Positions 60,143-63,492 of a DNA stretch of 64,000 nt are shown here, piece after piece. Under the pieces are notes generated by a model that did not search any database, had not been told where the DNA came from, and saw nothing but the letters and a program-made list of their open reading frames with translations. The position numbers and the translations under genes were made by a program. Source of the DNA: Gammaproteobacteria bacterium (GTDB lineage Bacteria > Pseudomonadota > Gammaproteobacteria > S012-40); the NCBI GenBank assembly GCA_029881255.1, contig JAOUMY010000011.1, positions 1 through 64,000 on the forward strand, given 5' to 3'. The stretch's first letter is position 1; each line of letters opens with the position of its first letter.

Positions 60143-60813
60143 TCCGCTTCGACAATGTCCGCAAACGCTACGCAGGAGGGCATGAAGCCCTGAAGGGCAT
60201 TAGTTTCCATCTGAACCCAGGCGAATTGGCGTTTCTAACCGGACACTCCGGCGCAGGCAAGAGCACTTTATTGAAACTCATCGCCCTGCTCGAACGGCCA
60301 TCTTCTGGTAGCATCCTCATCGAAAACCGCAATCTTGGGCGGATACCTAACCGTCAGATTCCTCACCATCGGCGCAAGATTGGCTTTATATTTCAGACCC
60401 CCACTCTGCTTCAGGACAGAGACGTTTTCCACAATGTGGCACTGCCATTACTGGTTGCGGGATATCACCCGCGCGACACCGCACGACGCGTGCGTGCCGC
60501 CCTCGACCAGGTTGGGCTGTTAAACAAGGAAACCGTACGCCCGATAACGCTCTCTGGTGGAGAACAACAACGCTTGGGTATCGCTCGCGCCATCGTTTCC
60601 AAGCCACCGGTAATATTGGCAGACGAACCCACTGGCAACCTCGACCCGGAACTGTCCAGAGAGATTATGGACTTGTTTCGCCGACTCAATGATGTGGGCG
60701 TTACCATGATGATTGCCACCCATGACCTCGAACTGATTCGCAGCCTACCCTATCGTCAGATTCAAATATCGCAGGGCCGTATCATCAATGGAGAAACAGC
60801 CCTTGAGTCATAA
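60139..60813 (+). CDS. ftsE: Cell division ATP-binding protein FtsE
   Basis: A 224-residue ABC ATPase that with FtsX activates septal peptidoglycan hydrolases. The Walker A is LTGHSGAGKSTLLKL, Q-loop IFQTPTLLQDRDV, signature LSGGEQQRLGIARAI, Walker B VILADEPTGNLDPE and H-loop ATHDLE. All are intact. It overlaps ftsY by four bases and ftsX by 26, as expected for the conserved ftsYEX operon. Confidence 0.96.
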   Translation: MIRFDNVRKRYAGGHEALKGISFHLNPGELAFLTGHSGAGKSTLLKLIALLERPSSGSILIENRNLGRIPNRQIPHHRRKIGFIFQTPTLLQDRDVFHNVALPLLVAGYHPRDTARRVRAALDQVGLLNKETVRPITLSGGEQQRLGIARAIVSKPPVILADEPTGNLDPELSREIMDLFRRLNDVGVTMMIATHDLELIRSLPYRQIQISQGRIINGETALES

Positions 60814-61852
60814 ACGCGTCCGTGAACGCCGCAAGGCCAGCAACCCGAATTACAACGGACCTTTCCGACGGGCTGACGACCGACAGCACCGCGCCTCCAA
60901 ACGTGGCGCGCGCGTGCTCGATGGAGAACAACGCGTACACCTGAGCAGTTATATCCAACAACATCAGCTCGCGCTACAAAGTGCCTGGCAACGTATGTTA
61001 GGCAGCCCAACGGCGACCATAATGACCGTATTTGTCATCGGTATCGCCCTGGCGTTACCCGCGGCATTAAAGGTGTTTTTGAGCAATGCGCAGCAGTTCG
61101 GCAGTGGGCTCGATCAACAGGTACAAATCACGATTTTTCTCAAGCCCCAAATCGGTGCTAACCGCGCTACCGCGCTAGCCGAACAATTGCGGTCACGCCA
61201 GGACTTAAGCAAGGTGACGTTTATATCCGCGGATGAGGCATTTCAGGAATTCCAAGCCATGTCAGGATTTGGGGATGCCTTGCGCGACCTGAAGCAAAAC
61301 CCTTTACCCGATCTGCTGGTTGTCACACCGGCAATCACAACTAAGGAAAAAAACGACTTTCTGCCACTCGTGGAAGAACTCCGAGGACTACCGGAAAGCG
61401 ACAAGGTACAACTCGACCTGGAATGGCTTCAGCGCCTTTACGCCCTACTCGACCTTGTTAGACAGGGCACGCTGCTTATTACCGTTTTTCTGATCATCGC
61501 GGTAATTATGGTGGTTGGAAATACGATACGGCTGATGAGCCAGAGTTATCGGGACGAAATACAGGTTAACAAGCTGGTCGGCGCCACCGATGCCTTTGTA
61601 CGTCGCCCCTTTCTGTACACCGGCATGTTTTATGGCCTGATAGGCGGCACCATCGCCTGGACGATTATTACCTTTTCCCTCACCTGGCTGAATCCCGCCT
61701 TGGACACTATTTCCGGCCTCTACCATGATGCCTTCGATATCAGGGGACTTGGTATTGTCGACACCCTGACCCTGATCTGTACTGGCGTTGTGCTTGGACT
61801 AGGCGGTTCCTGGATAGCCGTCGGTCGCTTTCTACGCGAAACGCAACCATAG
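60788..61852 (+). CDS. ftsX: Cell division permease FtsX
   Basis: A 354-residue membrane protein. A basic, cytosolic N-terminal extension (about 1-75) precedes TM1 (about 77-98, TATIMTVFVIGIALALPAAL), a large periplasmic loop (about 100-220) and three further helices (about 228-250, 280-305, 325-347). KLVGATDAFVRRPFLYTGM is a conserved cytosolic stretch. It transmits ATP hydrolysis in FtsE to periplasmic murein hydrolase activators. The N-terminal extension is long but common in gammaproteobacteria. Its gene overlaps ftsE and precedes rpoH. Confidence 0.94.
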   Translation: MEKQPLSHKRVRERRKASNPNYNGPFRRADDRQHRASKRGARVLDGEQRVHLSSYIQQHQLALQSAWQRMLGSPTATIMTVFVIGIALALPAALKVFLSNAQQFGSGLDQQVQITIFLKPQIGANRATALAEQLRSRQDLSKVTFISADEAFQEFQAMSGFGDALRDLKQNPLPDLLVVTPAITTKEKNDFLPLVEELRGLPESDKVQLDLEWLQRLYALLDLVRQGTLLITVFLIIAVIMVVGNTIRLMSQSYRDEIQVNKLVGATDAFVRRPFLYTGMFYGLIGGTIAWTIITFSLTWLNPALDTISGLYHDAFDIRGLGIVDTLTLICTGVVLGLGGSWIAVGRFLRETQP

Positions 61853-61910
61853 TAATGTTTCGCAAATTCATATAGATACAAACATTAAAGTTGCGGAACT
61901 CATCGGCCGA

Positions 61911-61937
61911 TTAGCACTCTAAAGACGGGACTGCTAA
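61911..61937 (+). promoter_or_regulatory. CIRCE element (HrcA operator), proximal to ftsX
   Basis: TTAGCACTC-N9-GACTGCTAA matches the CIRCE consensus TTAGCACTC-N9-GAGTGCTAA in 17 of 18 arm bases with the exact nine-base spacer. CIRCE is bound by the repressor HrcA and usually controls groESL and dnaK. Here it lies 90-115 bp upstream of the rpoH start. Confidence 0.8.
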
Positions 61938-61940
61938 AAA

Positions 61941-61967
61941 CTGGCACTCCCTGGTCTCGGGTGCTAA
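61941..61967 (+). promoter_or_regulatory. Second CIRCE-like element, proximal to rpoH
   Basis: CTGGCACTC-N9-GGGTGCTAA keeps the nine-base spacer and matches consensus in 15 of 18 arm bases. It starts exactly 30 bp after the first site, about three helical turns, so two HrcA dimers could sit on the same face. A plausible -10 (TAATAT, 61964-61969) overlaps its right arm, which would make repression direct. Confidence 0.65.
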
Positions 61968-62025
61968 TATTAGCGCAGTTCTGAATTCAACTATCGTGAA
62001 TCAATGACTTACAAGGGAGACGACC

Positions 62026-62877
62026 TTGACTACAAATAGCCTCGCTATGAGTATCGCGGCCCCGCAAGGGAATCTGGAAGCTTATATTGCCCAGGTCAAT
62101 CAATTCCCCGTCCTGGAAGCACAGGAAGAAGCCGATCTGGCGCGCCGCCTACGCGATGAAAACGATCTCGATGCTGCGCGTCAGCTAATCCTTTCTCAAC
62201 TCCGTTTTGTCGTACACATTGCCCGTGGTTATTCCGGATATGGACTCCCCCAGGGAGACCTGATTCAGGAAGGTAATATCGGCCTGATGAAAGCCATCAA
62301 ACGTTTCGACCCCGAGCAGGGCGTGCGCCTGATTTCCTTTGCTGTGCACTGGATCAAGGCCGAGATGCACGAATTCATTCTGCGTAACTGGAAGATCGTC
62401 AAAGTGGCGACGACCAAGGCGCAACGCAAATTGTTTTTTAATCTGCGTAAATCCAAAAAGCGCTTGGGATGGTTTTCTAACGATGAAGTTCACGCCGTCG
62501 CTAATGATCTGGGTGTAAGCCCAGCGCAGGTCAGAGAAATGGAAATGCGCCTGAGCAGTTCTGATCCCTCATTCGACGGCCCGATGGACGACGATGAAGA
62601 CAAAGCCTTTGCGCCAGCAGCATACTTGGAAGATCGCAGCATGGATCCTGCACGACTCCATGAGGCGGACGACTGGCAAAGTCAAAATCTGGATAAGCTG
62701 GCAGAGGCCTTGGAAAAACTTGACGACCGTAGTCGAGACATTCTCAACAAACGCTGGCTTACAGATGATAAAGCGACTCTGCATGAGCTGGCGGCCGAAT
62801 ATAAGGTGTCCGCTGAACGCATCCGTCAATTGGAGAAAAATGCCATCGGCAAACTGAAAACAGCTATGGCGGTCTAA
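62026..62877 (+). CDS. rpoH: RNA polymerase heat-shock sigma factor RpoH (sigma-32)
   Basis: A 283-residue sigma factor. The start is a TTG with AAGGGAGA 6 bases upstream, giving (M)[20 protein letters not shown]; an ATG seven codons on lacks a site. Region 2 has [20 protein letters not shown] and [17 protein letters not shown]; the RpoH box [15 protein letters not shown] is diagnostic; region 4.2 ends in [20 protein letters not shown]. It directs chaperone and protease genes after heat stress. Two CIRCE-like operators lie upstream, suggesting additional HrcA control. A strong terminator follows. Confidence 0.96.
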
Positions 62878-62922: not shown

Positions 62923-63075
62923 CGGCCAATACACCGAAAACGAACGAACTCTGATCAAAATAGCCGGTTCAATTCAAACACACACAGTTTTTGATTCCGT
63001 GAGCCTGCCAGCTTGTACTGCCCCAAAGAATTCGGTAGAGTCTCGAAACCGAATCAAAGGCAGGGACTGGTTAGC

Positions 63076-63492
63076 ATGGATTTACTCGAGCACCCTCGCT
63101 ACAAGGACAGACCAGTACTACTCTTTTTTGAAAAGTATGTGCTTGACGTCCTGGGCGAGCTGGAACGCAAACAGAAAAAAATTCTGGATGAGCTCGATCT
63201 CCAGTCCGTATTCAAAACCAAATCAAGCAAGTGGCGTGACGTCATTGCCGAAGTCCTGAAACTCTCGGACACCATTACCATCGCCATACTCGACGAATGG
63301 TATAAATATATAGATCGACAGGAAATGCGCGGCAAAAATGCCGATGTCGAATTATTTACCCGAAAGTTCGCTGACGCCTATTTCGAAGACAGTAGCAATA
63401 TCGATGTCTGGCCAGACCAGGAATCTCTGGCGGCGGCGCAGAAACGCATCGAGGAAAAACAGCGAGAACTGGAAAAAGAAGATATGTATTAA
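63076..63492 (+). CDS. Conserved small cytosolic protein of unknown function
   Basis: About 138 residues from the ATG at 63076 (MDLLEHPRYKDRPVLLFFEK); an upstream in-frame ATG at 63013 would add an atypical leader. The protein is acidic and mostly helical: VLDVLGELERKQKKILDELD, then WRDVIAEVLKLSDTITIAIL and a C-terminal coiled-coil (AQKRIEEKQRELEKEDMY). No signal or membrane segment, no motif I recognise. It is monocistronic between two terminators. Confidence 0.7.
   Translation: MDLLEHPRYKDRPVLLFFEKYVLDVLGELERKQKKILDELDLQSVFKTKSSKWRDVIAEVLKLSDTITIAILDEWYKYIDRQEMRGKNADVELFTRKFADAYFEDSSNIDVWPDQESLAAAQKRIEEKQRELEKEDMY

Follow-up and report, generated by a model that had tools for sequence, protein, structure and literature searches.

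Upstream of rpoH, the gene for sigma32, the 64-kb stretch of DNA analysed here (the window) carries two CIRCE operators in tandem, each overlapping sequences that resemble a promoter of a different type. We consider it quite likely that this control region is composite, with HrcA acting on a predicted sigmaE promoter through the first operator (A) and on a predicted sigma70 promoter through the second (B), and with GroEL titrating the repressor. HrcA is a dimeric repressor whose activity requires GroEL. In textbooks, the HrcA/CIRCE circuit of Bacillus and the sigma32 circuit of E. coli figure either as alternatives or as two inputs that reach groESL in parallel. Since HrcA sites lie on both predicted rpoH promoters, and since this arrangement recurs, mostly with a single site, in nearly all HrcA-bearing relatives, the master switch of one heat-shock circuit is probably under the control of the other.

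CIRCE was defined as TTAGCACTC-N9-GAGTGCTAA, with up to three mismatches allowed in the 18 arm bases. At this threshold A and B are the sole matches in the window; they start 30 bp apart and leave a gap of 3 bp (Table 1). Dinucleotide shuffles yielded a mean of 0.01 matches per window, and two matches in 0 of 100 shuffles. A preliminary description of this DNA had reported two 9-N9-9 repeats 30 bp apart, matching 17 and 15 of 18 arm bases, and both are confirmed; a chance origin is ruled out by the shuffles together with the genome-wide scan described below. With its three mismatches, site B may bind HrcA weakly on its own, and a counterpart at equal spacing is found in five other members of the window's family. 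We also considered whether one site had recently been duplicated in tandem along with its flanking sequence, and rejected this because, within every locus, A differs from B in both spacer and flanks. The gene order ftsY-ftsE-ftsX-rpoH is that of E. coli. The apparent TTG start codon of rpoH (62026-62028) is matched by TTG, GTG or ATG at that position in relatives, and 3' of the gene lies an ORF of 139 residues (63073-63489) with no Pfam or NCBIfam match.

Table 1. Features of the rpoH control region and adjoining genes in the window.
Feature	Position	Strand	Description
ftsX	60788..61852	+	Upstream neighbour of rpoH; TIGR00439
Predicted sigmaE -35	61895..61901	+	GGAACTC; 16 bp before site A; 1 mismatch to GGAACTT
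CIRCE operator A	61911..61937	.	TTAGCACTC-N9-GACTGCTAA; 17/18 arm bases, 1 mismatch; kept in relatives
Predicted sigmaE -10	61918..61922	+	TCTAA; overlaps left-arm end of site A; spacer N16 from 61902; from profile of 74 relatives
CIRCE operator B	61941..61967	.	CTGGCACTC-N9-GGGTGCTAA; 15/18 arm bases, 3 mismatches
Putative sigma70 -35	61941..61946	+	CTGGCA; within left arm of site B
Putative sigma70 -10	61965..61970	+	TAATAT; overlaps right arm of site B; spacer N18
Shine-Dalgarno of rpoH	62013..62019	+	AAGGGAG; from sequence
rpoH (sigma32)	62026..62877	+	Apparent TTG start; TIGR02392 (rpoH_proteo), 414.9 bits against a cut-off of 323.1

The source genome (4.97 Mb in 44 contigs) encodes the expected partners. 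The search for hrcA that the preliminary description had proposed returned a single gene (HrcA, 227 bits), and an rpoE was identified above its cut-off (TIGR02939, 331.7 bits). Five CIRCE matches with at most three mismatches occur genome-wide: a perfect one 118 bp upstream of groES, rpoH site A (one mismatch), one directly upstream of hrcA (two), rpoH site B (three), and one within an ORF (three), which was set aside as probably due to chance. The reversed pattern gave no match in the same genome. Two loci of genus g10 in the window's family have two degenerate CIRCE sequences before groES, 41 bp from start to start.

We then compared rpoH upstream regions among relatives. Complete rpoH genes could be obtained from 10 of the 13 genomes of the window's family, and all ten carry CIRCE upstream; six are tandem, with gaps of 2-5 bp, so the conservation that the preliminary description had named as a check is present. 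Across 110 genomes of Gammaproteobacteria outside the family, in which hrcA was scored as well, a CIRCE with at most three mismatches precedes rpoH in 73 of 77 hrcA-positive genomes versus 3 of 33 hrcA-negative ones. The association is strong (Fisher 2.6e-19); the four counts were compiled by hand, and the P value is too optimistic, since the genomes are related and represent fewer independent events than it implies. The dependence can also be followed within families. In family f11, G022 and G253 have both hrcA and the rpoH site while G158 has neither; in f122, G395 has both while G133 and G296 have neither; and in f65, genomes without hrcA have an eroded rpoH site.

The exceptions are few. 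Two of the three hrcA-negative genomes with a site belong to one family and share an eroded CIRCE, TGTGCACTC...GAGTGTTAA, apparently a relic after hrcA loss, as would be expected; the third genome is a draft assembly of 180 contigs. Four hrcA-positive genomes of the class sample have no standard rpoH site: one of these retains a left half-site only, and another has a CIRCE with an 8-bp rather than a 9-bp spacer, together with a sigmaE-type promoter. An extension to alphaproteobacteria was dropped, as the site is absent in 17 of 18 hrcA-positive genomes; therefore, the wiring is a trait of the class and not pan-proteobacterial. The one alphaproteobacterium that does combine hrcA with an rpoH CIRCE has it with one mismatch. 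The arrangement had initially been described as unusual, which is borne out for the doubling; CIRCE at rpoH is itself the common state in the class and no exception.

Single-site relatives reveal how the operator sits relative to candidate promoters. We aligned 74 single-site rpoH loci by the repeat and used 27 groES sites from the same set for comparison. GGAACTT (at most two mismatches) begins 16 bp before the rpoH CIRCE in 48 of 74 loci and 17 bp before it in 11, 59 loci in total, and hardly ever occurs elsewhere in the 40 bp upstream; at these offsets it is found at 0 of 27 groES sites. After the 16-bp spacer, the TC that ends the left arm and a preferred A at position 12 form TCNNA, and we regard GGAACTT-N16-TCNNA as a predicted sigmaE promoter. 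The window's GGAACTC-N16-TCTAA (61895-61922) agrees with the pattern GGAACTT-N15/16-TCNNA and is a candidate P3-type promoter. By the same rule, rpoH of E. coli K-12 has TGAACTT-N16-TCTGA, with equal spacing. Among hrcA-less genomes of the class, a sigmaE-type promoter is present at rpoH in 19 of 32 without CIRCE, versus 0.8 in shuffles; the predicted promoter is thus independent of the operator.

A second set of constraints falls within the repeat and just past it. Position 30, three bases past it, is T in 70 of 74 single-site rpoH loci versus 1 of 27 groES sites (T30), and position 3 of the arm is G in 22 of 74 versus 2 of 27. Together with T30, the right arm spells TAaaAT or TAATAT, preceded at a distance of 18 bp by TTAGCA or TTGGCA in the left arm, so that TTRGCA-N18-TAaaAT inside the single rpoH CIRCE is a candidate sigma70 promoter. 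In the window, the corresponding elements match 8 of 12 consensus positions at a spacing of N18, below the threshold of a generic sigma70 scan. That scan reported no promoter in the region, so the sigma70 assignment draws on conservation only. At groES, CIRCE follows a CTAT-type -10.

The tandem loci separate these two sets of features. A scan for paired CIRCE in 84,980 named species, with gaps of 0-12 bp allowed, returned 55 stretches, with gaps of 1-8 bp and in one case of 10; about half lie at rpoH, two at hrcA, and most of the others at groES, in Acidimicrobiia and further phyla. The pairs at rpoH come from Kangiella, Aliikangiella, Catenovulum, Sedimenticola, a Solemya symbiont, members of the window's family and others, and the 28 distinct pairs have gaps of 2-7 bp although 0-12 bp were allowed. 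Within them, the sigmaE -35 accompanies site A in 20 of 28 and site B in none, whereas T30 accompanies site B in 27 of 28 and site A in 8. A -35 is improved by G at arm position 3, a base present in 13 of 28 B sites and in no A site. Given this split, the sigmaE promoter would be served by A, and B would serve the sigma70 promoter. On an RpoH gene tree with many weak branches, whose single-state rows take in hrcA-less genomes without any site, at least nine changes between single and tandem are required; the tandem lineages of the window's family, Catenovulum, the Kangiella group and the Sedimenticola group are separate. The preliminary description was right about the pair, and its interpretation is supported, but it did not recognize a separate promoter for each site; the likely -10 it placed over the second site corresponds to TAATAT at 61965-61970, while the sigmaE promoter over the first site had escaped it.

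The same data bear on whether GGAACTT and T30 could instead be parts of an extended, rpoH-specific HrcA operator and not promoter elements. Their fixed position relative to CIRCE at rpoH would fit this reading, which we nevertheless judge very unlikely: HrcA sites at groES do without both features, GGAACTT-N16-TCNNA is kept in hrcA-less genomes without CIRCE and is recognizable at rpoH of E. coli K-12, and the two features part onto different sites in tandem loci.

A less remote alternative, though still a doubtful one, holds that only site A works and that B, once the single ancestral site, is in decay while being tuned as a sigma70 promoter; with only A working, the pair would act as a single-operator system. 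Such decay is suggested by the six tandem loci of the window's family, where A has 0-1 mismatches and B has 1-3, mostly 3, with the left arm of B drifting towards a -35. Outside the family, however, B is often perfect (Kangiella, Aliikangiella), and even within it the right arm of B and the spacing persist across five genera; across lineages the gap keeps to 2-7 bp.

Another reading takes the repeats not for operators but for RNA hairpins in the leader of the rpoH message, where they would affect its stability or act as a thermosensor. Site B would lie entirely within the predicted sigmaE transcript, and in the fold of this transcript bases 61947-61953 of the site pair with the Shine-Dalgarno sequence (62013-62019). 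The leader fold has a z-score of only -1.7, however, and the pairing seen in the window was not found in relatives, on which ground this reading was set aside; the predicted sigma70 transcript would include neither site, and the presence of the repeats tracks hrcA, which encodes a DNA-binding protein. We regard an RNA function in place of an operator as highly improbable.

Returning to HrcA control of both promoters, we infer from this layout how repression and release might proceed, including HrcA binding, cooperation between sites, promoter use and start sites. In an unstressed cell, HrcA would be kept active by GroEL and would block RNA polymerase as dimers bound at A and B. HrcA on A would cover the sigmaE promoter from the spacer to the start site, and HrcA on B the sigma70 promoter from the -35 to the -10. 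The centres of the sites are 30 bp apart, about three helical turns, a distance that would allow cooperation, which is perhaps present. Once GroEL is occupied by unfolded protein, HrcA activity would be lost and both promoters freed; the sigma70 promoter would fire at once, and the sigmaE promoter would add to it if the envelope is also stressed. Until GroEL becomes occupied, then, HrcA probably holds down both sources of sigma32. Because GroEL titration would release both promoters, sigma32 supply would be an output of the HrcA-GroEL circuit, as the preliminary description had suggested in proposing that HrcA limits it.

In most related genera, a single CIRCE would be nested in both promoters; in the window and a few other lineages, the promoters would have moved apart, each with its own operator. 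Extending this to HrcA-bearing gamma- and betaproteobacteria as a whole, we lean towards a picture in which the operator is a standing part of rpoH that covers both promoters and has been doubled and split in several lineages, in which GroEL-HrcA titration sets sigma32 supply, and in which loss of hrcA left the sigmaE promoter in place and made other control of rpoH necessary. HrcA appears to be placed above sigma32 in most sampled hrcA-bearing Gammaproteobacteria, at a node that also receives sigmaE. The hierarchy this implies is direct and testable, namely that chaperonin load acts via HrcA on rpoH, and it offers a possible reason for the other sigma32 controls in hrcA-losing lineages such as Escherichia. 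The repeated doubling with division of promoters would be a clean, small case of regulatory subfunctionalisation.

CIRCE at rpoH has been predicted before, and our literature search, with most subscription journals outside its reach, returned no report of the sigmaE/sigma70 overlap or of tandem CIRCE at rpoH. For Geobacter sulfurreducens, a CIRCE was predicted in front of rpoH (PMC545781, Table 8); it is a single site in another phylum, and promoter overlap is not described there. The survey of beta-, gamma- and epsilonproteobacteria by Permina and Gelfand from 2003, to which that paper refers, may list rpoH sites in beta and gamma genomes. A sigmaE promoter before rpoH, as predicted in the window, has precedent in P3 of E. 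coli and of Pseudomonas aeruginosa, where P3 is sigmaE-dependent (PMC9866376). E. coli K-12 differs from the window in having no CIRCE at rpoH, as do 30 of the 33 hrcA-negative genomes of the class sample. Outside the proteobacteria, Acidimicrobiia and other groups have paired CIRCE with 1-8 bp between sites that resemble the pair of the window but precede groES, a chaperonin gene, and not rpoH. With the classic HrcA/CIRCE regulon (groESL and hrcA-grpE-dnaK-dnaJ), the window's genome shares the operator, hrcA itself and the sites at groES and hrcA, and presence of the rpoH site likewise follows hrcA. It departs from that regulon in that the target is a sigma factor gene and in that the rpoH operator is nested in candidate promoter elements, whereas the groES CIRCE lies just after its -10.
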